The notes under the pieces were generated by a model, which had not been told where the DNA came from, did no database searches, and worked only from the letters and a program-made list of their open reading frames with translations. Position numbers and translations under genes: made by a program. Below, one piece after another: positions 5,999 to 60,834 of a stretch of 64,000 nt of DNA. Source of the DNA: Candidatus Methylacidiphilum fumarolicum. GTDB lineage: Bacteria > Verrucomicrobiota > Verrucomicrobiia > Methylacidiphilales > Methylacidiphilaceae. The stretch lies in assembly GCF_949774925.1 (NCBI RefSeq), contig NZ_OX458932.1:1116001-1180000 (forward strand), written 5' to 3'. Each line of letters starts with the position of its first letter. Within the stretch, counting starts at the first letter, position 1.

Positions 5999-6490
5999 AT
6001 GAAAAGTCTTCTAAAGAAAAGTCTATTGTTTTTTTTGCTTTTATTAGGGGTCTGGGCCTGTTCATCAACTAATTATATTCCTTATGAAGGAGGAGGAAGT
6101 CAAAAAGGGAAAGGAGCTTCAGTTCAGAAAATTAATGGCATTGATGTCTGGTATGATGGATTGCCTCCTCGGCCATACAAGATTATCGGAATCATTCATG
6201 ATAGAAGAAGTGGCTTGAGAAAATCCTCTTTACTTAAAGATATTACCAAAAAGGCTAAAAAAATGGGAGCAGATGGCCTATTGGAATACCAAGCTTATGG
6301 TATTTTACCGGGCGGAGCAACCGCTGCCCTTGGATCTGCAGCCGGACAAGCCATATGGGTTGCAGGGGCTTATGGGGCAAGTGCAGCAACAGGCCCAGGG
6401 TTGTTCATTGCAGCCCCGGTTTTAATTGGTCTTTCTTCTGCAACTGGGGGGCAGTCCCGATGGTGGGTAATTAAATACTTGGCTAATTGA
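5999..6490 (+). CDS. Putative lipoprotein, second of the tandem pair
   Basis: The 163-residue protein begins with a basic start and hydrophobic stretch ending in GVWAC, a good lipobox with Cys21. It shares NYIPYEGGGS, YKIIGIIHDRRSGL, GADGLLEYQAYGI and QSRWWVIKYL with the preceding gene, 26 nt upstream, so the two are probably co-transcribed. The Ala/Gly-rich segment before the RWW tail is longer and more hydrophobic than in the paralogue and might touch the membrane. The function is unknown. Confidence 0.8.
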   Translation: MKSLLKKSLLFFLLLLGVWACSSTNYIPYEGGGSQKGKGASVQKINGIDVWYDGLPPRPYKIIGIIHDRRSGLRKSSLLKDITKKAKKMGADGLLEYQAYGILPGGATAALGSAAGQAIWVAGAYGASAATGPGLFIAAPVLIGLSSATGGQSRWWVIKYLAN

Positions 6491-6556
6491 TGTAAATTAG
6501 CTCTTTAATATGGATTAAAAATGAAATAATTTAATAAATTTAAAAAAATAAATCAT

Positions 6557-8002
6557 ATGAAAAAAGTACCAATTACTGTTGCTTATGGAGATGGCATTGG
6601 GCCGGAAATCATGGAGGCCACTTTAAAAGTCCTTTTTGCTGCTGGGGCTGAATTGGAAATTGAGACTATAGAAATTGGTCAAAAAATATATATGCAGGGA
6701 AACCTCACAGGGATCGATCCTTCAGCTTGGGAAAGTCTAAAAAGAACAAAAGTTTTTTTAAAGGCACCGATAACGACTCCTCAGGGAGGTGGCTTTAAAA
6801 GCTTGAATGTCACCTTTAGAAAAGCTTTTGGTCTTTTTGCAAATGTAAGGCCTTGTGTAGCTTATCATCCTTTTATTTTTACAAAACATCCAAAATTGGA
6901 CTTAGTTATTGTCAGAGAAAACGAAGAGGATCTTTACAGTGGAATAGAACATAGACAGAGTATTGATTCCTATCAAGCCTTGAAAGTTTTGTCTTTTCAG
7001 GGAACCGAAAGAATTATTCGGTATGCTTTTGAATATGCTCGTTGCTTTCAAAGAAAGAAAGTGAGTTGTTTTACAAAGGATAATATCTTAAAAATTACAG
7101 ATGGGATGTTTCATAAGGTTTTTGAAAGAGTTGGACAAGAATATCCAGATATTGAAAAGGAGCATTGGATTATTGATATTGGTTCAGCTAAACTCGCTGA
7201 CAGCCCAGAATCCTTTGATGTAATTGTCTTGGCTAATCTCTATGGAGACATTCTATCCGATGTAGCCGTTCAGATTGCAGGATCTGTTGGCCTTGGTTCT
7301 TCGGCTAATATTGGTGATAGATATGCTATGTTTGAAGCTATTCATGGTTCTGCGCCTAGGAGAGCCGGACAGAATGTTGCCAATCCTTCTGGGCTTCTTT
7401 TGGCCGCTGTTCAAATGCTTATTCACATTGGACAAAATGCGGTTGCTGATCGCGTCTACAATGCTTGGCTTAGGACCATAGAGGAAGGCATTCATACTTA
7501 TGACATTTTTAGAGAAGGGGTCAGTAGAAAAAAAGTCGGAACAAAAGAATTTTCCGATCAAATTATCCAAAATTTAGGGAAAGAACCGGAGGTCTTAAAA
7601 CCTTTTTGTTCCACTAAATTTAAAGAAAATCCTAAAACAAATTTTTCTATTGTTCTACCTCAAGAGAAAAAAGAGTTAGTTGGAGTAGATGTTTTTGTTG
7701 AATATTCTTCTGATCCTGCTCAATTAGCAGGCCATTTAAAGGACTGTTCTGAATCGCTTATTTTGGAATCGATTGCGAATAGAGGAATGTCAGTATGGCC
7801 TGCTTGCTTTGAGGAAGCTTTACTGGCTGGCCCCTATCAATGCCGTTTTATTAAAAATAAAGAAAATAATTCAACCATTTCTCATGGGGATGTTGTTAGA
7901 CTTTTGGATAGAATCCAGAAAATTGGATTGGAATTCACTAAAACAGAGTTATTGTATACTTTTAATGGAATGGAAGGATATTCTCGTAGCCAGGGAGAAT
8001 AA
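6557..8002 (+). CDS. icd: Isocitrate dehydrogenase (probably NADP-dependent), Thermus-like long form
   Basis: The enzyme oxidatively decarboxylates isocitrate to 2-oxoglutarate in the cytoplasm. Visible family features are AYGDGIGPEI (9-18), the substrate loop KSLNVTFRK (81-89), ANVRPC (95-100), IVRENEEDLYSGIEHR (118-133), YGDILSD (229-235) and the cofactor loop HGSAPRRAG (263-271). At 481 residues it has an extra C-terminal domain, like the approximately 496-residue Thermus enzyme rather than the 416-residue E. coli one. The RR pair, where E. coli NADP enzymes have KY, would favour the 2'-phosphate of NADP; this is inference. It could also accept related 2-hydroxy acids, but SLNV plus domain size favour isocitrate. 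Confidence 0.88.
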   Translation: MKKVPITVAYGDGIGPEIMEATLKVLFAAGAELEIETIEIGQKIYMQGNLTGIDPSAWESLKRTKVFLKAPITTPQGGGFKSLNVTFRKAFGLFANVRPCVAYHPFIFTKHPKLDLVIVRENEEDLYSGIEHRQSIDSYQALKVLSFQGTERIIRYAFEYARCFQRKKVSCFTKDNILKITDGMFHKVFERVGQEYPDIEKEHWIIDIGSAKLADSPESFDVIVLANLYGDILSDVAVQIAGSVGLGSSANIGDRYAMFEAIHGSAPRRAGQNVANPSGLLLAAVQMLIHIGQNAVADRVYNAWLRTIEEGIHTYDIFREGVSRKKVGTKEFSDQIIQNLGKEPEVLKPFCSTKFKENPKTNFSIVLPQEKKELVGVDVFVEYSSDPAQLAGHLKDCSESLILESIANRGMSVWPACFEEALLAGPYQCRFIKNKENNSTISHGDVVRLLDRIQKIGLEFTKTELLYTFNGMEGYSRSQGE

Positions 8003-48186: not shown

Positions 48187-48804
48187 TCAAGAAACAAGCC
48201 CAAAAGAAGCTAATGCAGCTTTTGTTTTTTCAAAGCATTCATGTCTAATAGCCTCAATACCAAGGCTGCGTGCAATGTCGACGAACATTGGTCGATCTTC
48301 TATGTAAAGCACAGATTGTGGAGGAGACTGAGATACATCAAGGGCCAATTGAAAAATATCCACGTCAGGTTTTCTAAGGTGTACAAAAGAAGAAACGATG
48401 AAATAATCGATAAAGTTATAAAGTCCAAATGTTTGAATCCTATAGACTTGTAGCTCTCTACCTTCATTGCTTAAAACCGCTAACCTTAAGTTATATTTAT
48501 TTTTCAGACTCTTGATTAGTTCTATCATTTCTGGATAAGGACGGGAGAGGCTGAACATAAATTGCCTGAAATCATCCATGCTAAAAGGGCGATTTTGATA
48601 GAAAACGGTTCTTTTTAAGTAATCATGTAAAGTCAGCTTTCCTTGTTCATACGTATCGAAAGTTAAATGATGCCTTTCTTCAAATTCTACAGGATCAAGC
48701 CCAAAAACCTCAGCTGCCTTTTTTCTTCCAGTACTATCCCATCCATTCGTTAAGAGTACACCTCCGACATCCAAAAAAAGGGTGTTGATTGGAGAGAAAG
48801 GCAT
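48187..48804 (-). CDS. HAD-superfamily hydrolase
   Basis: This 205-residue protein has motif I FLDVGGVLLTNGWD (first Asp, second position Gly-Gly rather than DxD), motif II VLSNEGRE, Lys in LRKPDVDIF and motif III VLYIEDRPMFVDIA. The pattern matches haloacid dehalogenase-like hydrolases of the YihX type. The missing second Asp of DxD (DVG) suggests altered or weak phosphatase activity. The substrate is unknown. Confidence 0.83.
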   Translation of the reverse strand: MPFSPINTLFLDVGGVLLTNGWDSTGRKKAAEVFGLDPVEFEERHHLTFDTYEQGKLTLHDYLKRTVFYQNRPFSMDDFRQFMFSLSRPYPEMIELIKSLKNKYNLRLAVLSNEGRELQVYRIQTFGLYNFIDYFIVSSFVHLRKPDVDIFQLALDVSQSPPQSVLYIEDRPMFVDIARSLGIEAIRHECFEKTKAALASFGLVS

Positions 48805-48883
48805 AAAAGGATTTTTTTAGAAAAAAAATAGAAAGAAAAAAAAGTTGCTCTAAAAATATAGGTCAATGAGGAATACTTTCTCA

Positions 48884-50074
48884 TTATTCAGAACGGATTC
48901 GCAGAGAAAAAAACGCCGTAAAACAAATGACTGACCCAATCATTAAACTCAATTTTGTACCAAGGAACTGAGCCAAAGTCCCCATTAAGAGATTTCCGAT
49001 AGCAAAGAAACCTTGGAAAAAAAAGGTAGTAAGTCCAAATGCCATTCCTCGCATGGAATCGGAGATTCTTTCTTGAAGAAACATTGTGGTTGCGGAGACA
49101 AAAAGGGCAAGACTAAAACCCAGAAAGGAAACAATTAGAATGGAAAAGAAAAATGGGGGAAAAAAGGAGAAAAGAAAAAGAGAAAAAGAGAATATGATCA
49201 TAGAGAGAGTTTGTAAGGTTGATGAACTGAAGCGGTTAGGGAAAAAAGATATCAAGAGTGCTGCGCTAATGGCTCCAAAGCCATTAGCACTGTAGAAAAG
49301 AGCTAATCCTTTAGATCCCTGATGATATATCTGCGAAGAGATGTAAGGGAGAAGAACTGAATAGGACCAACCAAAAAGGGTAACAATGCCTAGGACGATA
49401 GATGGATAAAAAACTGCAGGATTAGAAATGAGGACAAAAAAGTTATTCTTTGTTGAACGACCGGAAGGCTGGTCTTTGATCCGTTCATTTGTTGATGAAG
49501 CCCAAATAAAAGAACCAATAGAAAGGATATAGGAAATTCCATTTATAAAAAAGCAAATAGAAGGTCCATACAGTGGTAGGATAATGCCAGCTACCGCTGG
49601 CCCTATAAGCCGTGCTGAGTTGAAAAGAAAAGCGTTCATAGCAATGGCTCTTTTAATCTCATTATTCGGAAGATAAGAAAGAAGTAGGGTTTGCCTGGAG
49701 GGAAGCTCTAGATTATTGAAAATACCCATGGCAAAGGAAAGCAGAAGGAGCTCATAGAAGTTTATCATTTTTAGATAACTTAATAGCCCGAGAAAGAAAG
49801 AAAGACAGCAATTGGAAAATTGACTCAATATAAGAATTTTTAATTTTGGAAACCTATCGGCGGTCATCCCAGATAAGAAGGAAAAAAGAAGAGAAGGGAT
49901 GGTCGATCCGAAACCAACCATTCCAAGCCCTATAGGCGAATGTGTCAACTGGTAGGCAAGCCAACTCTGACCGATAAAATGGATCCAGCTGCCGATAAAA
50001 GAGATCGACTGACCGATAAAGGCAATTCTATAGGATTTATAACTAAATAAACCTTCTCGAAAAAAAAGCTTCAT
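48884..50074 (-). CDS. MFS transporter (EntS-like/MFS_3)
   Basis: The 396-residue protein has about twelve transmembrane segments and the MFS loop SGMTADRFPKLKILILSQ between helices 2 and 3. The N-terminus FREGLFSYKSYRIAFIGQSISFIGSWI (read across 5-31) matches the EntS-like permease group. The substrate cannot be predicted. It is divergent from xoxF across about 180 nt. Confidence 0.86.
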   Translation of the reverse strand: MKLFFREGLFSYKSYRIAFIGQSISFIGSWIHFIGQSWLAYQLTHSPIGLGMVGFGSTIPSLLFSFLSGMTADRFPKLKILILSQFSNCCLSFFLGLLSYLKMINFYELLLLSFAMGIFNNLELPSRQTLLLSYLPNNEIKRAIAMNAFLFNSARLIGPAVAGIILPLYGPSICFFINGISYILSIGSFIWASSTNERIKDQPSGRSTKNNFFVLISNPAVFYPSIVLGIVTLFGWSYSVLLPYISSQIYHQGSKGLALFYSANGFGAISAALLISFFPNRFSSSTLQTLSMIIFSFSLFLFSFFPPFFFSILIVSFLGFSLALFVSATTMFLQERISDSMRGMAFGLTTFFFQGFFAIGNLLMGTLAQFLGTKLSLMIGSVICFTAFFSLRIRSE

Positions 50075-50191
50075 TTTGTGAAAAAAATTATATAAGTGAT
50101 AATGCTAACAAAAACACTCAAGTGAATAAGACCTGATGAAACGGAAAGACAGCTTTTTTGTTGTCTGTCAATGAAAACCTTATATTTGTTA

Positions 50192-50219
50192 TTGACTTAA
50201 CTCACAAGAGTGGTAAATG
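50192..50219 (+). promoter_or_regulatory. Possible sigma-70 promoter of xoxF
   Basis: TTGACT at 50192-50197 and TAAATG at 50214-50219 with a 16-nt spacer lie 35 nt before the xoxF start. A strong ribosome binding site AGGAGG follows at 50243-50248. The -10 box is a weak match, so this is tentative. Confidence 0.35.
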
Positions 50220-50253
50220 GAAGGCACCATAGAATTAATAATAGGAGGAAGCG

Positions 50254-52089
50254 ATGACAGTGAAATTAAAAAAGCCTAAAAAGTATGCCGTGGCTAAGAA
50301 TGCGACATTGTTGGCTGCTTTTGGCTTGATTGGTTCTTTATCGCTTGCAAAAGCGAATGACGAGTTAATTAAACTTGAAAAAGAACCCGGCCAATGGGTC
50401 ATGCAAAACAAAAATTACGCAAATACGCGGTATAGTGAACTTAATCAAATCAACACCAAAAATGTGTCCCGTCTACGACTTGCCTGGAGTTTTTCAACCG
50501 GGGCTTTGCGTGGACACGAAGGCGGACCATTGGTAGTAGGCACGACGATGTATGTCCATTCAGCCTATCCTAACCATGTCTACGCCCTCGATTTGACTCA
50601 AAAACCATACGCGATCAAATGGCAATATACCCCTGTACAGAATAGTCAAGCAGTGGCAGTTGCTTGCTGTGACGTAGTGAACAGAGGTCTAGCCTATGCG
50701 AATGGAAAAATATTCATGACAACCTTGGATGGTCAAATTATTGCCCTTGATGCGAATACGGGAAAAGAACTCTGGAAAATGAAGCATGCAGATGTGACTA
50801 AAGGAGAGACCATTACAGGAGCACCTTTGGTCGTTAAAGATAAGGTTCTGGTTGGGGTATCCGGAGGAGAATTCGGAGTCAGAGGAAGGGTAGGAGCCTA
50901 TGATATCAATACAGGCAATAGGGTATGGTTAGCTTATAGCCAAGGCCCTGATGAAGAGGTCCTGTTAGATTCTGACTTCAATAAAGAGTTTCCACAGCAT
51001 GGTGGTCCAGGGGATGGAACTAAAACTTGGCCAGGGGAACAATGGAAGCTGGGTGGGGGGACTACATGGGGATGGTATAGTTACGATCCTGCTCTTGATT
51101 TATTTTACTATGGGACAAGCAACCCTGGAACCTGGAATGCCGAACAAAGAAAAGGAGGAGACAACAAGTGGTCCTGCACTATTTTTGCTAGAAGACCTGA
51201 TACTGGGAAAGCTAGATGGGCTTATCAGATGACTCCTTGGGATTCGTGGGATTATGATGGGGTCAACGAGATGATTCTTCCTGATTTAACTGTAAAAGGG
51301 AAGAAAACACCCTGTCTTGTTCATTTCGATAGAAATGGGTTTGGATATGTCTTGGATAGAAGGACAGGTCAGTTAATAGAAGCTCAACCCTTTGTTTATG
51401 TTAACTGGGCTAAAGAAATAAGCAAAGAAAACGATAGACCTGTTGAAATCCCAGAAAAAAGGACAAAACAGGGAGTTGATACCAAAGGGATTTGTCCGAA
51501 TTCTATGGGAGGCAAGGATCAACAGCCTGCGGCCTTTTCTCCTCAAACAGGGTTATTTTATGTTCCAACCAACAATATGTGTATGAACTATGAAGGGGTT
51601 GAGGCAACCTATACGGCTGGGGCTCCTTATGTGGGTGCGAATGTGCTTATGTATTCAGGGCATGAAGGTAAGGATGATTATTATGGAGCTTTTATCTGCT
51701 ATGATGCTCTTAAAGGGAAGAGAGTTTGGGAGATTCATGAGCATTTCCCCGTATGGAGTGGACCGGTGGTTACAGCCGGTGGGCTTGCGTTCTATGGAAC
51801 GATGGATGGATGGTTTAAGGCGGTAGATATCAAGACTGGTAAGGTTCTTTGGCAACAGAAGTTGGGCTCTGGAATTATTGGGAATCCAATTACCTTTTTG
51901 GGTCCTGATAAAAAGCAATACGTTGCTGTCTATTCTGGAGTTGGGGGATGGTTTGGGATTGCTGTGGCTCAAAATCTTCCTCCCGATGATCCTTATGCGG
52001 GTCTTGGGGCTGTTGGAGTTGCTTATCAAGCAGGTCTTCCGAAAGCTACTACAGTTGGAGGAGAGCTCTATGTGTTTGCGTTAGAATAA
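50254..52089 (+). CDS. xoxF: Lanthanide-dependent methanol dehydrogenase XoxF
   Basis: This periplasmic PQQ enzyme oxidises methanol. It has 611 residues with a signal peptide and an eight-bladed propeller. Visible are the vicinal Cys138-Cys139 disulfide in VACCDVV, Glu206 (GGEFG), Asn290 (SNPGTW), and Asp333 and Asp335 in SWDYDG. The second Asp is the extra lanthanide ligand, replaced by Ala in calcium MxaF. These correspond to Glu172, Asn256, Asp299 and Asp301 of the mature Methylacidiphilum SolV enzyme with a constant offset of 34, implying cleavage after Ala34. AGGAGG precedes the start. A hairpin follows the stop. Confidence 0.97.
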   Translation: MTVKLKKPKKYAVAKNATLLAAFGLIGSLSLAKANDELIKLEKEPGQWVMQNKNYANTRYSELNQINTKNVSRLRLAWSFSTGALRGHEGGPLVVGTTMYVHSAYPNHVYALDLTQKPYAIKWQYTPVQNSQAVAVACCDVVNRGLAYANGKIFMTTLDGQIIALDANTGKELWKMKHADVTKGETITGAPLVVKDKVLVGVSGGEFGVRGRVGAYDINTGNRVWLAYSQGPDEEVLLDSDFNKEFPQHGGPGDGTKTWPGEQWKLGGGTTWGWYSYDPALDLFYYGTSNPGTWNAEQRKGGDNKWSCTIFARRPDTGKARWAYQMTPWDSWDYDGVNEMILPDLTVKGKKTPCLVHFDRNGFGYVLDRRTGQLIEAQPFVYVNWAKEISKENDRPVEIPEKRTKQGVDTKGICPNSMGGKDQQPAAFSPQTGLFYVPTNNMCMNYEGVEATYTAGAPYVGANVLMYSGHEGKDDYYGAFICYDALKGKRVWEIHEHFPVWSGPVVTAGGLAFYGTMDGWFKAVDIKTGKVLWQQKLGSGIIGNPITFLGPDKKQYVAVYSGVGGWFGIAVAQNLPPDDPYAGLGAVGVAYQAGLPKATTVGGELYVFALE

Positions 52090-52110
52090 TCTTCCATTGA
52101 AGATTGATTT

Positions 52111-52160
52111 TATCCAGCCGCTGCCTTACAAACAAAAAGGTTTCTGGCAGCGGCTGGATA
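52111..52160 (+). repeat. Perfect 15-bp GC-rich hairpin between xoxF and xoxJ
   Basis: TATCCAGCCGCTGCC (52111-52125) and its exact complement (52146-52160) enclose a 20-nt loop. It starts 21 nt after the xoxF stop. No T-run follows, so it looks more like an mRNA-stabilising or attenuating structure than a classic terminator. The 250-nt xoxF-xoxJ spacer contains no convincing gene. Confidence 0.75.
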
Positions 52161-52342
52161 GCCTTGACCAAAGCGATTTGTTGCTTTGCAAAAAAGGCAG
52201 AAGCACGTTACAAACCAATACTTATTTAAAAGAAGCGGATGGGCTTTTTTTTAATCAGTCTAAGCCTCTAGGGAAAAGGGGATATAATCCTTGAAGTGAC
52301 AGAGGATAGGGGATAGGTTCTAGAAAAGAAAAAGGAGCAAAA

Positions 52343-53215
52343 ATGTTAGGGTTAAGGTTTCATTTTTTACATAGGCTGAAGCTATTATCCTTTAGCCTTT
52401 TATTTGTGTTTTTTATAGGGTTTGTATGCAGGGCAGAGGAAATCTGCTCCTGCGCTGATCCAGGAAATCTTCCTTTTTCGAATCAAAAATTGGAAGGATT
52501 TGAGAATAAAATCGCTCAAATCGTAGCCGACTCCCTACATGTTCCTCTTTCTTATTATTGGTTTGCGCATCAACGTGGTCTTGTTCGAAATACGTTGAAA
52601 ATAGGAAAATGCAATGTGATTATTGGAGTGCCATCGACTTGGGGACAGGTGCTAACTACAAAACCTTATTATAGGACTTCCTATGTAATGGTTTATAAGA
52701 AAGATAAGGGATTAAACATTCAATCCTTGGATGATCCCGCTTTGAAGCATTTAAAAATAGGAGTTTTGATAAACAGTCCGCCCCATCAACTTCTTGCTGA
52801 AAAAGGGATTATAGAAAATGTTGTTGGATATTCCCCATTTTTTGATCCTGTCTTCCATCCTGAAGATTTCCCTGGGAAAATCGTTGAAGAGGTTTTGAGT
52901 GATAAAATTGATATTGGGCTTGTCTGGGGACCAGTGGCCGGCTTTTACATCAAAAAGAAGGGGGCAGCCTTAACCATGGTTCCTTTGACAAGCAATAATC
53001 CGAGAATTCCAATGGCCTTTGATATTTCCATGGGGGTCAAAAAGGGGGATCAAGAGCTTAAAAACAAACTTGATCAGGTTATTGATTCGAAACATGGAGA
53101 AATTTTACAGGTTCTTGAAGAATATGGTGTTCCATTGCTGAGAACTACAGCTGATATCGAACAAAACACGAATATCGGAAAAAGCCACGAAGTTTCAGCA
53201 AAAAACGTCAACTAA
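52343..53215 (+). CDS. xoxJ: XoxJ, periplasmic substrate-binding-like partner of XoxF
   Basis: This 290-residue exported protein (signal to about Ala31) has a two-lobed binding-protein fold: CSCADPGNLPFSN, NVIIGVPSTWGQVL, TSYVMVYKKDKG and DKIDIGLVWGPVAGFY. It matches the XoxJ/MxaJ family proposed to assist assembly or activation of methanol dehydrogenase. AAAGGAGC precedes the start. It lies between xoxF and xoxGJ. Confidence 0.9.
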   Translation: MLGLRFHFLHRLKLLSFSLLFVFFIGFVCRAEEICSCADPGNLPFSNQKLEGFENKIAQIVADSLHVPLSYYWFAHQRGLVRNTLKIGKCNVIIGVPSTWGQVLTTKPYYRTSYVMVYKKDKGLNIQSLDDPALKHLKIGVLINSPPHQLLAEKGIIENVVGYSPFFDPVFHPEDFPGKIVEEVLSDKIDIGLVWGPVAGFYIKKKGAALTMVPLTSNNPRIPMAFDISMGVKKGDQELKNKLDQVIDSKHGEILQVLEEYGVPLLRTTADIEQNTNIGKSHEVSAKNVN

Positions 53216-53246
53216 CAATATTAACTTTTATTTATCAGAGCTAAGA

Positions 53247-54125
53247 ATGAAAAAAATTAGCATTGTTTATTTAATGTTGTCTTTGTTGCCATTTGGCAGT
53301 CTTTTTGCCCAAGCGAAAAATCCTTATACTCCATCAGACAAAACGGTCGTTTCTCAGGGTAAAGAATTATACTTTAAGATGGGATGTAACGGCTGTCATG
53401 GAGCAGGGGGTGGCGGTGGGATGTGCCCTTCTTTTATAGATGATACGTGGGTTTTTGGTAGCGATGATCAGACCCTATTTAAACTCATTAAAGGACAGAT
53501 TCCTCAACAAACAATGCCAAGAATGTTTGGTGGAGTGCTGACCGATGACGAAATATGGAAGGTTATTACCTTTGTAAGGTATTGTAAAGTTGCTGCTTCC
53601 GAACAGGCCGGAGGAACATCGGGTCAAATAAATATAGATAAGAAATCATGTGCTATTGTGGAAGCTGACCCTCATTGGCTCAGAGCCGTTCTTCCCAAAT
53701 TGACGGGATATCAAAGCCAATATGTTTTAGTTTTTGATGCCTCTTCAAAGAATTTCTCATCTGCAGAAGACAGTAAACTTGCTGGCTCTACACTCGCTGT
53801 TCTCGATAACAGTTCTGGAAAAGAAATAGCTGGTTTGCTTCATGCCAAACCTAAAGTATATCCTGATAAAGAAAGAGAACTAGGGAAACCAGTGGAAGAT
53901 CTTTTAGCAGGGAAAGTAGATGGAGCTATCTTATGGGCTCCTCTGGCCGCATTTTATACAATGGAATTGGATTCATCGAGGAAACTTAAAATGATAGCAT
54001 TTTCCAAAGCATATCCCGCGCCTAAAGGATTTGAAGGTCAAGAACAAAGCTCTATGGTATATGTAACAAAATGCGCTGAGGCCTTGCTCAATGTACTAAA
54101 AGTATATAATGTAGCTCCAAAATAA
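53247..54125 (+). CDS. xoxGJ: Cytochrome cGJ: XoxG cytochrome c fused to a XoxJ-like domain
   Basis: This is the electron acceptor of XoxF in verrucomicrobial methanotrophs, where the G-J fusion has been described. The 292-residue protein has a signal peptide, a class I cytochrome domain (residues 25-115) with haem motif CNGCH at 47-51 and a likely Met ligand in TMPRM (90 or 93). A J-like part starts at about 125. GKVDGAILWAPLAAFY aligns with DKIDIGLVWGPVAGFY of XoxJ. The first-lobe N-terminal segment of XoxJ (CADPGNLPFSN) has no counterpart, so the J part looks truncated. It lies 31 nt after xoxJ. Confidence 0.92.
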   Translation: MKKISIVYLMLSLLPFGSLFAQAKNPYTPSDKTVVSQGKELYFKMGCNGCHGAGGGGGMCPSFIDDTWVFGSDDQTLFKLIKGQIPQQTMPRMFGGVLTDDEIWKVITFVRYCKVAASEQAGGTSGQINIDKKSCAIVEADPHWLRAVLPKLTGYQSQYVLVFDASSKNFSSAEDSKLAGSTLAVLDNSSGKEIAGLLHAKPKVYPDKERELGKPVEDLLAGKVDGAILWAPLAAFYTMELDSSRKLKMIAFSKAYPAPKGFEGQEQSSMVYVTKCAEALLNVLKVYNVAPK

Positions 54126-54220
54126 TCGAAAGTGAGGTTCAGAAGGTTTCCAAACTTTGTTGGATTTGGAATGTTCAAGGCTATTGCTTTGTTTTAGACA
54201 TTGGATACAATGTAAGTATT

Positions 54221-54589
54221 ATGGGACAGAATCTTTCAGAAGAAAAATGTGTTGCTTGCCGTGGCGATGCCCCCAAAGTGACACCAGAAGAGAAGGAAAT
54301 ATTAAGTAGGCAAATTCCAGAATGGAAAATTGTCGAAAAAAATGGGGTAGAAATGTTGGAAAGAAAATATGAGTTCCCTGATTTTGCTTCGGCTCTGATG
54401 TTTACTGAAAGAGTCGGAAAACTTGCAGAGAATGAAAAACATCATCCTTCTATTTTGACGGAATGGGGAAAAGTTACAGTGTGGTGGTGGACCCACAAGA
54501 TCAACGGATTACATCGCAACGATTTTATTATGGCAGCAAAAACAGATAGCCTCTATCAACCACTTTTAAAAGATTATATTGAATCGTAA
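54221..54589 (+). CDS. phhB: 4a-hydroxytetrahydrobiopterin dehydratase
   Basis: The 122-residue pterin-4a-carbinolamine dehydratase has an N-terminal CVACRG segment common in bacterial members, LERKYEFPDFASALMFTERV and the active-site block AENEKHHPSILTEWGKVTVWWWTHKINGL (read in two parts). It recycles tetrahydropterin after aromatic amino acid hydroxylation. It is on the xox strand but separated by 95 nt, so a methanol role is not implied. Confidence 0.92.
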   Translation: MGQNLSEEKCVACRGDAPKVTPEEKEILSRQIPEWKIVEKNGVEMLERKYEFPDFASALMFTERVGKLAENEKHHPSILTEWGKVTVWWWTHKINGLHRNDFIMAAKTDSLYQPLLKDYIES

Positions 54590-54654
54590 CTTTTTCCTAT
54601 TTTTTAAGAGAAAAAAGCTTTTAATTGTTCTAACTACAAGAACAAGAGAGATAA

Positions 54655-54680
54655 ATAGGGGAGGCTTTTACCTCCCCTAT
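54655..54680. repeat. 10-bp inverted repeat downstream of phhB
   Basis: ATAGGGGAGG and CCTCCCCTAT flank a CTTTTA loop. It lies 65 nt after phhB and about 40 nt outside the similarity limit of IS copy B. It may be a phhB terminator lacking a strong T-run, or a structure the element inserted next to. Confidence 0.55.
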
Positions 54681-54726
54681 GAGTTTGTATGGCATCATTG
54701 ACGAGCTTCCGTTCAAGCCACTGTTC

Positions 54727-56290
54727 CTAAAGCCATACTCGAGATTTGCTTACGCCTGACTTGATTTCGATCTTTTCGTCTTGGTTTTGGTCGGAACGTC
54801 CCAGGATTGCCATGGCCTTTTCTTTCTCCGGGGGAGAGGTGTGGTGTTGATGAGCCGGCGGCGCTCGCATTAGCCAAGATGGCAATCGCTCCTGCTTCGC
54901 GTCCATTTGCTGGGGTTGGCTGATGCCTGGAATCGTCTTCCCGGAATAGTACCACTTATCGGGTTTCCAATCTGGTGGGTTCTCGTTCCTGCGAGAAAAC
55001 CTCTCCGAAAGCATCGCATGCAATCGGAACCGCGGGGTTTTCGACAATATTCTTCGGGTCTCCGATCCTTTCCCTTTGAGGTTGCATGCGCCAATCCGAT
55101 CTGCACGGCTCTCGTACTCGCAATACAGACATGTAGACCTGTCTCCGGCACGGTTCTTTGGATGGGCATAACAGCACTTCGGACAAAGCCAGAGAGCTAT
55201 AGGCTGGATTGACCAGCTCTCGACGGGAACCTCCCCCAGGCGCCAGCAATTGGATTCGCTCTTGAAGCACACAGCTGCGCATTTGTAGGAGGCGCCTAGA
55301 AAGTTCTTTGCTTAGGGCTTTCCCACGAAAATCTAAGGATTCAGAAACAATTACCGAAGGTCTTTGTAGCTTGAGGAGTTGTCGCAGGCTTAAGCCTACC
55401 CGCCTCCCTATTTCTGTCTCCGCCTTGAATAAACGACTCAACCGCTTTTTCTTCCCTAGGTTATGCTTGTGGATGCGTCTTGGTTTACTCCTCAAACCAT
55501 TTTCCCTATTTCTTTCCGTGGTCATCTGTGAAAACATCAGAAAGTCCAGCCTCTATCCTGACCGCTTCCCCCTCTAATTGCTTCGAAACTCTGAGTGGCG
55601 CCGCGTAGTGAATAACGACTCTCTTTTCCTTTAAAACAAGGTGAATCATTCCCCAAATCTTCAGATTGCCTGACAGTGGAATGACAATCCTTTTGCCACA
55701 TTCAAGGCTTATGAGCGCGATATACTGCCTCCCCTTCTCCTTGAAGGTCCAGTACATGCTGGCGTCGAAGCTCGCCGAGCGGCTCAATCAAGTTCTCGAG
55801 AGCCCTCCGATGACCTTTCGTAAGTCCCTGTACAGCCACAGGAGAATGGCATCCAGCCTTTCCAAGCAAACCGGAGAGGCTGAGACCTCGACGGCTTCTC
55901 CCCGCAGAAACAGGACGATTCGTCTTGCTGAACGCAGCATCTAAAAATCAAATTGTTTCTCGGTTTCCGTCCTTCCTTCCCTGCAGCGGATCTTCGAACC
56001 AATCCCTGCCAAGGAGACGTACATCCACTTCTCAACCTTCTCGTAGACATCCTTGAGCGCCCACTTCCAAATCTAGTCCTGCAACCCGTTCGGACTGGTA
56101 TAGTCTTCTGCCACAAGCTGGTCCCGTTCCCCTCGTTTGCCCAGGCTTTCCGCGAAGCGGTCCAAGCCAAAGAAAGAGACGAAAAAACGCTCTTTCTCGG
56201 CTGCAGAGTAAAGGCAGAGATCCTATAGCATCTTGCGCTTCTTCTGTTTGAGCGGGCAGGCTTTCTGCTCGAGATCGTTCGGCACATCGT
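54727..56290 (-). pseudogene. IS607 TnpB remnant, copy B
   Basis: Frames in order are KERFFVSFFGLDRFAESLGK near 56180, QYIALISLECGKRIVIPLSG near 55690, EAVRIEAGLSDVFTDDHGKK near 55540, SLRQLLKLQRPSVIVSESLDF near 55360, and a complete zinc ribbon (CPKCCYAHPKNR and CLYCEYESRADRIGACNL) at about 55080-55190. The second catalytic Glu and third Asp are kept. The first RuvC Asp is Glu, as in copy A. Frameshifts separate the blocks. Confidence 0.75.
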
Positions 56291-56329
56291 CTTATCCGGA
56301 CTCATTGGCTTATACCCATTGCCCCCTGA

Positions 56330-56773
56330 TCTTTTCTTTTGTATTTGTGCAAACCGTAAAGAGTGCTTGGGAAAGCAGGAATGGATCAAAATGAGTTCCT
56401 TGATTATCTCTCCTCCAGAGAGAGGCACTTGCCCGTTCATGACTGGGATTTTAGTTCCATGAGATAAGCAAAACTTCTTGGGCCATCGGAAACCGAACCG
56501 GACCAGCCGGTCCTTATGGACGACCACGGTCTCGGAGATCTCTCCCAGCTCCATCAGACGTAGAGAATTTTTTTTCTTGCAGTTGAGTCAGCTGCTTTCA
56601 ATCCCCCAGTCGTTCGGCCACCGTCTTGCCTTGAGCCAGATAAAACTTTTCCAGAGCTTGCTGCTGATCTTTCAGATCTCTCTTTTGCTTGGCGCTGGAG
56701 ACTCTTGAGTAGGGTAGGATCTTTTGCGGTGCTCTCGTCTCCTTTTGGCCAATCACCCGCAGAGAGTCCTCAT
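56330..56773 (-). pseudogene. IS607 TnpA (serine recombinase) remnant, copy B
   Basis: One frame near 56690 reads YSRVSSAKQKRDLKDQQQAL, including the catalytic serine motif of IS607 resolvases. A frameshift later, MELGEISETVVVHKDRLVRF (56554 downwards) gives the HKDRLxRFGF block, followed by the C-terminal SLRFAQIQKKR remnant. The reading frame is broken near 56560, so the protein is not made intact. Confidence 0.75.
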
Positions 56774-57000
56774 GGTGTTAATATAGCAGGTTTATTGGAG
56801 TTCGTTTGGCGGGCAATACTCCTTCCCGCCAACCTTTTACCACTGCCTGTTGACGCTGCGACCGATCAACGCGCCAAACTTCTTCGGGGAATGAAGGCTT
56901 CCATACCTATTTATAACTAGATTGGCATGGCAATAGTAATAACTATTATTTACTCCATAATCATCATCCCAGGGCAATGGATACTCCCATAATTCCTCTC

Positions 57001-57065
57001 AAGGGCTTTGGGTTCTAGCACCGTTTCAAAATCTGTGAACTTTTCTAGGTAGAACCCAAACCCTT
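57001..57065. repeat. 16-bp inverted repeat with one bulge
   Basis: AAGGGCTTTGGGTTCTA (57001-57017) pairs with TAGAACCCAAACCCTT (57050-57065) apart from a bulged C, across a 32-nt loop. It lies in the 220-nt gap between IS copy B and the dehydrogenase gene, in the 3' flank of the latter. No T-run follows on either strand. Confidence 0.55.
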
Positions 57066-57166
57066 TTCGAGTGGTGATTAAAACCAGAAAAGTAATTAAT
57101 GGTTCTAATCCCTATCTTTTATTTATTCTTTGTCTAGAATGAATGTTTTAGAATAGCAATTTAGAT

Positions 57167-58063
57167 TTAGTCTTTATCTAATCCGTGACGGTCTGGAAAT
57201 GTCAACTCGGATATGGCGGATTTATCGTACTGACCAAATCCTTTTTTAACCAGTCTTTGATATTGGTTATAAGTGGCTTGGGCAAGTGGGAGATTCAATC
57301 CAGTTTCTTTTGCTAAATTAAGAGCAATGCCGCTGTCTTTCAAGGCATGTTCGGCAGAGAAGAAACAAGAATGTTCTCTATTTTGCATATCTTCTCCATC
57401 TGTCTGCAAAACTCTAGAGTTAGCTCCAGTTTGGGAAAATACTTCTCTAATCATATTTAAATCGAGGTTGAGAGCTTTTGCAAGTCCCAGGCCTTCAGCT
57501 AGAGCGGCAGTATTGATGTTCATCACCATGTTTACAAGGGCTTTGACTTTTGCTGCTGAACCTAATTCACCACAATAACGCATCGAAGACGACATGTCCT
57601 TGAGTATAGGTTCGACTTCATCAACAACCTGTTTTTTGCCACCAAGCATGAAATATAAAGTACCACTTCTTGCTTGAGGAATACTTGAAGCCATGCATGC
57701 TTCTATAGCTTCGGCTCCTACTTCTTCACAAAGTTTGCCGACTTCTATATGAGTTTTTGGGGAAATAGTGGCGGTATTAATAAATATTTTTCCTTTAGCT
57801 CCAATCAAAAGACTGTCCCCATTTTTAGCAAAAATTTTATACATTGCAGCGTCATCGGAAACCACTGTGAAAATCACATCAGACAGCTCTGTTACTCTAG
57901 CAAGTTTGGTTGTTGCTTCTGCTCCTATTTCTTTTGCTACTTCTTCTGCGACTTTTTGATTAATGTCGTAGACCACAGTAACAGGATATTTTAAATCATG
58001 AAGGCGTCTGGCCATATTGGCTCCCATTCTTCCTACGCCTACAAAACCAATTCTTTTACTCAT
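57167..58063 (-). CDS. Beta-hydroxyacid dehydrogenase (3-hydroxyisobutyrate/tartronate semialdehyde type)
   Basis: This 298-residue NAD(P)-binding enzyme begins IGFVGVGRMGANMARRL (Rossmann GxGxMG) and has ACMASSIPQARSGTLYFMLGG, then the catalytic Lys region GSAAKVKALVNMVMN. It may reduce tartronate semialdehyde or oxidise 3-hydroxyisobutyrate; the sequence does not separate these. AAAAAGGAGAG precedes the ATG. It is downstream of lpd on the same strand. Confidence 0.85.
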   Translation of the reverse strand: MSKRIGFVGVGRMGANMARRLHDLKYPVTVVYDINQKVAEEVAKEIGAEATTKLARVTELSDVIFTVVSDDAAMYKIFAKNGDSLLIGAKGKIFINTATISPKTHIEVGKLCEEVGAEAIEACMASSIPQARSGTLYFMLGGKKQVVDEVEPILKDMSSSMRYCGELGSAAKVKALVNMVMNINTAALAEGLGLAKALNLDLNMIREVFSQTGANSRVLQTDGEDMQNREHSCFFSAEHALKDSGIALNLAKETGLNLPLAQATYNQYQRLVKKGFGQYDKSAISELTFPDRHGLDKD

Positions 58064-58201
58064 ACTTCTCTCCTTTTTTAATCCTATTCGATTAATGATT
58101 ATACTAATTTTCTTTCACCAAGAATAGTTTTCTATCTAGTTAAAAATTTTTTTTGGTTTTAAGTCAAGTGCAATTAGCTGGCATTTCTTGTAACATTCAA
58201 A

Positions 58202-59587
58202 TTAAAGATGGAGTCCCTGACCTTCTGCAAGAAGTGCAACTTCTCCGACCATCTCTGATAAAGTTGGATGTGGATGAATGGCTAGGAATAGCTCTTCGGC
58301 TGTGCTTTCTAAGGTTTTTGCAAGAGAAAATTCACCAATAAGTTCGCTTGCATCCTCCCCTATAATGTGTGCTCCTAGAATTTCTCCTTCAGGATCACTA
58401 ATTAGTAATTTGACAAATCCTTCTATTTCACCAGAGGCAACGGCCTTTCCATTAGCACTATATGGGTATTTAGCAACCTTATATGGAATGCTTGCCTTTT
58501 TAACTTCCTCTTCAGTCATCCCTACAGTAGCAACTTGAGGTTGGCAATAAACGCAGGAAGGAACAAAGTGAGGTCTTGTGGAGTATTTCCCAAGAAAAAT
58601 GCAATCAATAGCTTCCCATCCTTCTCTAAAGGCAGCATGAGCGAGTAAAGGTGGGCCAATAATATCTCCAGCTGCGAAGATCCCATCTACAGACGTTTGA
58701 TATTTTTCGTCAACAGCAATAAATCCATTTTGGGTTTGAAGCTCAAAATCGGGCTCCAAAACATCTTCTAGATGAGCTGAAACTCCAATAGCAAGAAGCA
58801 TAGCTTCAGACTCGATTGTTTCGTTAACCGCTCCTTTCAATCTTACATGAATTTTCTCTTTAATATTCCAACATTTTTCTACAACCGTTGAACAATAGAT
58901 GGTGATGCCCTTTTTGGAGAAACTTTTTTGCAAGGCTTTAGAAATTTCACTGTCTGTTCCAGGGAGTATTTCCGAAGCCATTTCAACGATAATGACTTCA
59001 GATCCCATACACTTATAAAAATAGGCAAATTCTACCCCTATGGCGCCTCCCCCAACAATGAGAATTTTTTTGGGAAGTCTGGTAGTTTCTAAAGCCTCCC
59101 GGCTTGTAAATATCAGTTTGCCATCGACTTTAATAAAAGGTAAAGTTTTTGCTTTACATCCTGTAGAAAGAAGAATATAGGGAGCAGAAAGTTCTTCAGT
59201 TTTCCCATCAGGAAAAGTCATTCTTATTTTTTTATCTTTGTTAATTTTGCCTTTAGCTTTAATCCATTGAATTCCTCTTGATTTAAATAAATATTCAACA
59301 CCAGAGGACATGCGATTTGCAGATTGCCTGCTTCGGGCAATCACTTTACTATAATCGAATTTTAGTCCCGAAATTTCCAGTCCAAAGGCATCAGCTTTTT
59401 TGCATCTTTCTATAAACTCAGCTGTTTTAAGTAAGGTTTTGGAAGGGATACATCCCCAATTGGAACATACACCTCCCAATTTATCTGCTTCGACAACAGC
59501 TACTTTTTTACCTAACTGAGAGGCTCTCAACGCAGCAACATAGCCAGCAGGACCTCCACCAATAATAATCAAATCCAGTGTATTCAT
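58202..59587 (-). CDS. lpd: Dihydrolipoamide dehydrogenase (E3)
   Basis: This 461-residue flavoprotein disulfide reductase has the FAD motif IIGGGPAGYVAA, redox disulfide Cys41-Cys46 in GGVCSNWGCIPSK, NAD motif ILIVGGGAIGVEFA, FAAGDIIGPPLLAHAA and the C-terminal HPHPTLSE catalytic His-Glu. It reoxidises lipoamide of the adjacent E2. It lies 11 nt after pdhC. Confidence 0.95.
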   Translation of the reverse strand: MNTLDLIIIGGGPAGYVAALRASQLGKKVAVVEADKLGGVCSNWGCIPSKTLLKTAEFIERCKKADAFGLEISGLKFDYSKVIARSRQSANRMSSGVEYLFKSRGIQWIKAKGKINKDKKIRMTFPDGKTEELSAPYILLSTGCKAKTLPFIKVDGKLIFTSREALETTRLPKKILIVGGGAIGVEFAYFYKCMGSEVIIVEMASEILPGTDSEISKALQKSFSKKGITIYCSTVVEKCWNIKEKIHVRLKGAVNETIESEAMLLAIGVSAHLEDVLEPDFELQTQNGFIAVDEKYQTSVDGIFAAGDIIGPPLLAHAAFREGWEAIDCIFLGKYSTRPHFVPSCVYCQPQVATVGMTEEEVKKASIPYKVAKYPYSANGKAVASGEIEGFVKLLISDPEGEILGAHIIGEDASELIGEFSLAKTLESTAEELFLAIHPHPTLSEMVGEVALLAEGQGLHL

Positions 59588-59598
59588 AGATGGGTTTT

Positions 59599-60834
59599 TT
59601 AGACTAGCATGGAGAGCGGATTTTCCAACAATGACTTAAATTCCTTTAAAAATTTTGCTCCTGTTGCTCCATCAATTACCCTGTGGTCACACGAGGCAGT
59701 GACTCTTACAACTTCTCCTACAATAATATTGTTCTGAGAATCGATTAAGGGCTTTTTTACAACTGCTCCTATAGCCAGGATCATTGCTTGAGGAGGGTCA
59801 ATAATAGCAAAAAAGTTATCAATGCCATACATTCCTAAATTCGATATGGTAATGGTCCCCCCCATGTACTCTTCTGGGGAGAGTTTTCTTTCTTGGGCTT
59901 TTTGTATAAGCTCCTTTGCTTCTTTTGATAGCGTCATGAGAGATTTATCTCGGGCGTTTTTGATAACAGGGGTGATAAGTCCATCCTCTAATGCAACGGC
60001 AAGGGCAATATTGATAACATTATGTTTTAAAATAGAATCAATGTTCCAGGAAGCATTGACGGAAGGTACTTTTTTTACAGCTTCGACGGTAGCCTTTAAG
60101 AAGAAGTCGTTGTAAGTGAATTTCCATGGTTGCTCCTGCTGAGAATAATAAAGATTAAGCTCATTTCTCAATCGCGAAAGAGAGCTAACGAAGATTTCTG
60201 TTTCTAGATAAAAATGGGGAATGGTGGTCTTGCTCTCTAAAAGACGTTTTGCGATTTTTTCCCTCATCATTGAAAGAGGAATTTTGGTCTCGGATAAGTC
60301 AGGTTGTGGAGCACCAGAAATACCAGGAGGCTTTTGAATAGGGAGCTTCCCTTTCTGTTCTAAAGAACCCAAAACATCCCTTTTTAGAATTCTGCCACCA
60401 GGACCTGTTCCTTGAATTGAGGAAAGTTCAACACCTTCCTCTCGAGCAATTTTCCTAGCTAAAGGAGAAGATTTTATCCTTTGGGCAGGCTCTTTTTCGG
60501 TAACTTCTCTGAGTTGGCCCATTGATTTTGTCAAAGAACTAGTTTCTTTCATCTCCATTGCTTCTTTTTGAACTTGCGGAGCCGAAATGGCTTCTTCCGA
60601 TTCCGATTCTATTAAAGCAATAGGAGCATTAACTGGAGCTCTTCCCCCCTCTGGAAGCAGAATTTTTTTAAGGACACCAGATTCGAAAGCTTCTAAATCC
60701 ATGATTGCTTTATCTGTTTCAATTTCCGCAATCACTTCCCCTTCTTGGATAGGGTCTCCTTCTTTTTTTAACCATCTAACAATCTGCCCTTCGGACATCG
60801 AAGGGCTCAACAAAGGCATGGTGATTTCTTTCAT
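59599..60834 (-). CDS. pdhC: Pyruvate dehydrogenase E2, dihydrolipoamide acetyltransferase
   Basis: The 411-residue protein has a single lipoyl domain (Lys42 in ETDKA), an Ala/Glu-rich linker, a peripheral subunit-binding domain ([20 protein letters not shown], about 122-141) and the acyltransferase domain with catalytic [15 protein letters not shown] near the C-terminus. Together with pdhA, pdhB and lpd it makes the PDH complex. It is separated from pdhB by the oppositely oriented TPR gene. Confidence 0.93.

Follow-up and report, generated by a model that had tools for sequence, protein, structure and literature searches.

The J part of the XoxGJ fusion in the Methylacidiphilum xoxF2 locus: a truncated XoxJ and candidate docking module

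Verrucomicrobial methanotrophs have been described to encode a fusion of the cytochrome XoxG with a XoxJ-like part (XoxGJ, or cytochrome cGJ) together with a separate xoxJ gene (PMC6688271, PMC8498564); the earlier note on this DNA had also called the fusion known. It has been reported as well that the J part is truncated, with the speculation that it serves to bind XoxG:J to the methanol dehydrogenase (PMC6688271); a fusion with a truncated J part is already known from the literature. Cytochrome cGJ has been named the natural acceptor of the SolV methanol dehydrogenase (PMC7082304) and its redox partner (PMC8498564), and xoxGJ is transcribed (PMC5623727). In strains SolV, Kam1, and V4 (Versantvoort et al. 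2019, as cited in PMC6688271 and PMC8498564) the gene order is xoxF-xoxJ-xoxGJ, the same as in the locus analyzed here, and the fusion itself did not differ from what those accounts describe. XoxF-dependent growth of M. extorquens AM1 requires both XoxG and XoxJ, and an interaction of XoxJ with XoxF1 is reported (PMC7391723). Several of the results below were not found in the literature searched: exact boundaries of the J part with controls, a change in its cysteines, a fusion in strain PQ17, a single origin of the fusion, and, in Methylacidimicrobium, an empty locus with an altered XoxF2.

The window, a stretch of 64,000 nucleotides of the Candidatus Methylacidiphilum fumarolicum genome, encodes xoxF, xoxJ, xoxGJ, and a pterin dehydratase gene in that order on the plus strand (Table 1). 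The genome is a single contig of 2,476,671 bases and contains one full XoxJ and one partial XoxJ, which is the J part of XoxGJ. The XoxF of the window was identical to PDB 4mae, from Methylacidiphilum fumariolicum SolV, at 577 of 577 mature residues (100%), so its XoxGJ very probably corresponds to what was isolated from SolV under the name cytochrome cGJ. The free XoxJ matched the XoxJ structure PDB 6onp (2e-55) and also the MxaJ structures 5sv6 and 9ism. On the minus strand at 54713-56554, between the pterin dehydratase and HIBDH genes, there were overlapping broken frames; one of these had a Cys pattern that by eye resembles a TnpB zinc finger, and it had no match in Pfam.

Table 1. Coordinates of the xoxF-xoxJ-xoxGJ locus in the window
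Feature	Coordinates	Strand	Evidence
xoxF, XoxF2-type lanthanide methanol dehydrogenase, partner enzyme	50254..52089	+	NCBIfam TIGR03075, 681 bits
xoxJ, free two-lobed XoxJ, 290 aa	52343..53215	+	TIGR03871, 313 bits, model 2-232 of 232
xoxJ codons 34-89, first lobe-1 segment, without counterpart in XoxGJ	52442..52609	+	Segment/local alignment with shuffles; hhalign
xoxGJ, fusion protein, 292 aa	53247..54125	+	Intact ORF; full-length orthologues in G001-G005
Putative signal peptide, residues 1-21, by eye	53247..53309	+	Sequence MKK..LLPFGSLFA/QAK
XoxG cytochrome c domain, residues 22-113, heme motif C47-N-G-C50-H51	53310..53585	+	PF13442, PF00034, TIGR03872
Linker, residues 114-134	53586..53648	+	Least conserved part between genera
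Predicted lobe-1 remnant and first hinge, residues 135-163 (XoxJ 90-118), starting at conserved Cys135	53649..53735	+	Gapless match
Second-lobe homologous region, residues 164-252 (about XoxJ 119-218)	53736..54002	+	Block 211-238 = XoxJ 176-203; W/P counts
C-terminal tail, residues 253-292: shortened region, new Cys276, helix 280-289 (XoxJ 254-263)	54003..54122	+	Tail test; Cys counts
Pterin-4a-carbinolamine dehydratase gene; right-hand border of the xoxJ-xoxGJ pair in comparison with Methylacidimicrobium	54221..54589	+	Pfam PF01329; synteny

The first part of XoxGJ is a cytochrome c (residues 35-110, Pfam PF13442, 2.2e-10, above the cut-off). It aligned with the free XoxG of Methylacidimicrobium and NC10, had the same heme motif and domain as free XoxG/cytochrome cL (TIGR03872), and was 56-59% identical to XoxG of Methylacidimicrobium. 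As expected of an XoxG, it is a single c-type heme domain (CNGCH) encoded together with xoxF, two genes downstream of it. The score against TIGR03872 (MoxG) was 48.5 bits, under the curated cut-off of 147.8, but the free XoxG proteins of NC10 and Methylacidimicrobium reach only 60 bits, so this cut-off does not separate XoxGJ from them. Free XoxG stops shortly beyond the domain, whereas XoxGJ continues with the linker and the J part.

The J part resembles a portion of XoxJ. Residues 130-254 of XoxGJ matched positions 53-183 of the 232 positions of the MoxJ/XoxJ model TIGR03871 (4.5e-10, 39.5 bits), in place of the match to the whole model above the curated cut-off of 212.15 by which a XoxJ is recognized. 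Profile-profile alignment with hhalign paired XoxGJ 132-290 with XoxJ 87-264 (97%, E 4e-11) and nothing earlier. In comparison with free XoxJ and MxaJ (TIGR03871, TIGR03870; PDB 6onp, 5sv6, 9ism), the J part is homologous to XoxJ 90-264 and has the W-x-P signature in common with them, but nothing in it corresponds to the N-terminal CxDPxNxPxSN segment or to the remainder of 34-89.

XoxJ was cut into structural segments, and each segment was sought anywhere in XoxGJ and compared with shuffled sequence. The scores were position-specific, derived from 15 diverse XoxJ/MxaJ, and the targets were the window protein and the distant orthologue from Ca. Methylacidithermus pantelleriae PQ17 (G005). Element names follow the secondary structure in a low-confidence model of XoxJ, homology to solved XoxJ/MxaJ structures, and the general type II binding protein fold. 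Two segments matched without gaps and were reached by none of 300 shuffles in both targets: XoxJ 90-118, comprising the third strand of lobe 1 with a helix and the first hinge, at XoxGJ 135-163, and XoxJ 176-203, in lobe 2, at XoxGJ 211-238. A weaker match placed XoxJ 119-145 at XoxGJ 163-189 (0.013 in the window, not significant in PQ17). The C-terminal helix, XoxJ 254-263, matched XoxGJ 280-289 at 0.003 within the region 219-267 and at 0.107 against all of XoxJ; the stretch ahead of this helix is also shortened in XoxGJ, and the alignment there is uncertain. The XoxJ 34-89 block did not beat shuffles in XoxGJ of either the window or PQ17 (0.21, 0.32), nor did it when compared with the cytochrome part of XoxGJ (0.225).

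These tests support the loss of four lobe-1 elements from the J part, namely strands one and two and helices one and two. What its sequence retains is lobe 2 with a hinge-side remnant of lobe 1 and the last helix, and on this evidence it cannot be a complete two-lobed XoxJ: the pair of lobes that characterizes XoxJ, N-terminal segment 34-89 included, was not recovered in XoxGJ. The earlier note had described the J part as only the second lobe, which is nearly right but leaves out XoxJ 90-118, a lobe-1 strand and hinge, and the C-terminal helix, which are kept as well. Its term half binding protein has sequence support in the four missing lobe-1 elements, and its view that XoxJ from about 35 to 85 has no counterpart agrees with the shuffle results for 34-89 and with the start of the hhalign match. 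It had quoted a pair of strings, which are XoxGJ 222-237 and XoxJ 187-202, and had aligned about 125-292 of XoxGJ with XoxJ from about residue 88. The homology was confirmed, with a start at Cys90 on the XoxJ side and no gap for the first 29 residues; on the XoxGJ side the start is Cys135 and not about 125, as 114-134 are linker.

Structure prediction contributed the order of secondary structure elements. The AlphaFold model of the J part was too poor to interpret (pLDDT 36, pTM 0.24, with 4-8 usable alignment rows), and from the XoxJ model (pLDDT 45, also 4-8 usable rows) only the order of secondary structure was used. Foldseek matched the XoxJ model to 6onp, 9ism, and 5sv6 with a global rmsd of 17 A, which indicates local similarity only. 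Mixed alignments of XoxGJ, XoxJ, and XoxG misplaced XoxJ fragments onto the cytochrome and were set aside. A circular permutation, with the C-terminal helix of XoxGJ corresponding to the first helix of XoxJ, was also considered. The helix XoxJ 50-66 matched the C-terminal helix of the PQ17 protein and not that of the window protein, the match was not significant at the family level (0.12), and the permutation was rejected because the ordinary C-terminal helix scores better (0.003).

The cysteines of the J part have also changed. Cys was present at position 37 in 26 of 27 XoxJ rows and at position 90 in all 27, and a pairing of Cys90 with Cys37 can be inferred for XoxJ. In XoxGJ the Cys37 segment is lost and Cys90 is kept as Cys135. 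All six XoxGJ proteins have a further cysteine, Cys276, in a column that is without Cys in all 27 XoxJ rows. The new Cys276 and the lost partner of Cys90 suggest a rewired disulfide, in which the orphaned Cys135 would pair with Cys276.

Cytochrome and J part were joined in one open reading frame, following xoxF and xoxJ, in all five Methylacidiphilum genomes (one of them Kam1, G004) and in PQ17, where the fusion has 327 aa (L075:7471-8454). PQ17 has been annotated with a plain xoxG, and the fusion has been termed exceptional to Methylacidiphilum strains (PMC8170126). The XoxJ of PQ17 (L075:6380-7441) has a His-rich C-terminal tail. Because the open reading frames are intact in six genomes, a frameshift or assembly artefact is excluded. 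The seven Methylacidimicrobium genomes had a free XoxG, separate from XoxJ; of the two genera that the earlier note had proposed to compare, Methylacidiphilum has the fusion. In each of 12 NC10 loci, XoxJ was full-length and stood apart from a XoxG-like cytochrome that was itself free.

The J parts formed one clade (support 100/100), and a tree in which Methylacidiphilum fused its own XoxJ independently was rejected (AU 4e-6). These phylogenies indicate that the fusion arose once. Within the XoxJ tree the J lineage is attached by long branches, and its grouping with neighboring XoxJ gave AU values of 0.27 and 0.45. A simple route to the fusion may have been that xoxJ was duplicated downstream of xoxG and that a later deletion brought the 3' end of xoxG into frame with codon 90 of the second xoxJ. 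No relatives were found in the viral contigs searched, and the plasmids searched with the J part gave only ordinary XoxJ at low identity and one short hypothetical protein. A XoxJ on an Azospirillum brasilense plasmid (L048:2902-4218) had a C-terminal extension with a weak rhodanese match (4.8e-4, just under the Pfam cut-off).

The gene order HAD-MFS-xoxF2-...-PCD-HIBDH-lpd-E2 is common to Methylacidiphilum and Methylacidimicrobium. Methylacidimicrobium loci L073, L074, L077, and L079 were collinear with 48187-60834 of the window except that xoxJ and xoxGJ were absent. The junction of xoxF2 and PCD is spanned in four Methylacidimicrobium genomes, and two more end at or before it; in one genome (G007) the PCD gene begins within about 100 bases of xoxF2 (6469 to 6563). 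In the XoxF2 tree PQ17 fell outside Methylacidiphilum plus Methylacidimicrobium (85/83, not decisive), a position which favors loss of the xoxJ-xoxGJ pair in Methylacidimicrobium. In the Methylacidimicrobium loci examined (L034:4520-6136 and the corresponding frames of L035-L038), the XoxJ that adjoins XoxF1 ends in ankyrin repeats (Pfam 7.6e-41 in L034). It is likewise the product of a remodelled xoxJ gene in the same bacterial family, but it differs from XoxGJ in having the full two lobes plus the repeats, in standing beside XoxF1, and in being unfused to XoxG. A literature search found no paper combining 'ankyrin' and 'xoxJ'.

The XoxF2 that is left at this locus is itself altered. In all seven Methylacidimicrobium genomes (XoxF2 loci L059-L061, L062, L063, L064, L065) the active-site Asp299 is replaced by Gly (window residue 333) and Cys105 of the vicinal disulfide by Tyr (window residue 139). 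Also altered are Arg360 and Asp422 (window numbering); among the metal ligands, the counterparts of Glu172, Asn256, and Asp301 are retained. The numbering of Glu172, Asn256, and Cys105 is taken to follow the PQQ alcohol dehydrogenases, from which Asp299 is presumed to be the catalytic base as well. The Asp and the Cys are intact in XoxF1 of the seven genomes. The frames of Methylacidimicrobium xoxF2 are unbroken and dN/dS is 0.05-0.10, like XoxF1. Judged from these sequences, Methylacidimicrobium XoxF2 is probably a conserved pseudoenzyme. In SolV XoxF2, both Asp299 and Asp301 are ligands of the lanthanide (PMC8546591). In Methylacidimicrobium strain AP8, expression of xoxF2 was 85-fold below that of xoxF1, and another lanthanide was suggested as a possible inducer of xoxF2, in an account whose available part contained no mention of the active-site changes (PMC7907005). 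The absence of the pair where XoxF2 has lost active-site residues links XoxJ-XoxGJ to XoxF2 catalysis. Since xoxJ and xoxGJ were lost together, this does not single out the J part itself.

The favored reading of the J half-domain, although as a claim no more than evenly balanced, is that it is a docking module and makes XoxGJ a dedicated acceptor for XoxF2; the earlier note had also suggested a docking module. The J part would reuse the lobe-2 surface by which XoxJ and MxaJ are presumed to recognize the dehydrogenase, and would hold the XoxG heme near the PQQ exit of XoxF2; XoxGJ would then be the dedicated electron acceptor of XoxF2, and the free two-lobed XoxJ would retain a separate helper role that needs both lobes. 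With the first half of lobe 1 missing, the J part has no cleft to close and, judged from its sequence, cannot serve as a two-lobed clamp. Members of the XoxJ/MxaJ family bind a dehydrogenase, as the title of PDB 9ism, an MxaF/MxaJ complex, indicates, and xoxGJ is tightly linked with xoxJ and xoxF2. Conservation of the J part, its single origin, and the co-loss with an altered XoxF2 give circumstantial support for docking. Free XoxG without a fused J part in NC10 and Methylacidimicrobium indicates that docking by a J part is not generally needed.

Purifying selection acts on the J part: within Methylacidiphilum its dN/dS was 0.06-0.10, compared with 0.04-0.05 for XoxJ 90-267, with several other genome pairs saturated. 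Between the window and PQ17, identity was 36% in the J part, 66% in the cytochrome, 54% in XoxJ 90-267, and 28% in the linker (114-131). This faster divergence of the J part between genera speaks against docking. It would suit a stabilizing cap, a fusion leftover folded on the cytochrome that aids survival in the hot acid periplasm and does not bind XoxF, as would the poor conservation of the middle of the J part (164-205) between genera and the restriction of the fusion to thermoacidophiles among the genomes sampled. However, the most conserved block of the J part, 211-248, contains W230-x-P232 of the lobe-2 signature that it has in common with XoxJ, which a mere cap need not keep. In the XoxJ/MxaJ rows, P of this signature was found in 27 of 27 and W in 26, with F in one MxaJ; as in XoxJ, W and P of the W-G-P-x-A motif were present in all XoxGJ rows, with G replaced by A, S, or T. 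Methylacidimicrobium, of similar habitat, also manages without the fusion, and the cap is considered somewhat unlikely.

Every genome with the fusion has the free xoxJ immediately upstream of it, the two genes were lost together in Methylacidimicrobium, and their transcript levels are alike (PMC5623727). It might be proposed from this that the J part pairs with free XoxJ and not with XoxF, its half-cleft being completed in trans, so that XoxJ would recruit XoxGJ to the dehydrogenase within a ternary complex. But operon neighbors share fate and expression for many reasons, and NC10 has xoxJ next to xoxG with no fusion; such pairing is judged quite unlikely. Along the chain, the cytochrome does precede the lobe-2 segment and so occupies the place of the missing part of XoxJ, as the earlier note had stated, but that it also replaces lobe 1 in space, with a new cleft between heme domain and lobe 2 that binds, for instance, PQQ or a metal, is very unlikely: the linker between them, some 20-35 residues long and poorly conserved, argues against a fixed interface, and no conserved pocket residues came to light.

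The docking proposal can be extended to a broader scheme, which is speculative and on the whole unlikely. XoxF2, XoxJ, and XoxGJ would be one evolutionary module, in which the J half-lobe and lobe 2 of XoxJ compete for the same face of XoxF2, and the helper hands the finished enzyme to the acceptor. In Methylacidimicrobium this module would have been dismantled by excision of xoxJ and xoxGJ from between xoxF2 and the gene after it; XoxF2, without its catalytic Asp and vicinal disulfide, would be maintained by selection in a non-catalytic role, perhaps that of a lanthanide sensor, with XoxF1, XoxJ-ankyrin, and XoxG doing the chemistry.

In these hot-acid methane oxidizers, XoxGJ joins the electron acceptor from the rare-earth methanol enzyme to a cut-down helper. 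For the role of XoxJ in lanthanide methanol dehydrogenases, XoxGJ offers a natural separation of the two lobes. Binding of XoxF by residues 134-292 on their own, if true, would place the binding face in lobe 2 and make activation dependent on lobe 1. Methylacidimicrobium may serve as a natural loss experiment, and its altered XoxF2 questions the current view (PMC7907005) that this protein is another methanol dehydrogenase which lacks only a suitable lanthanide.
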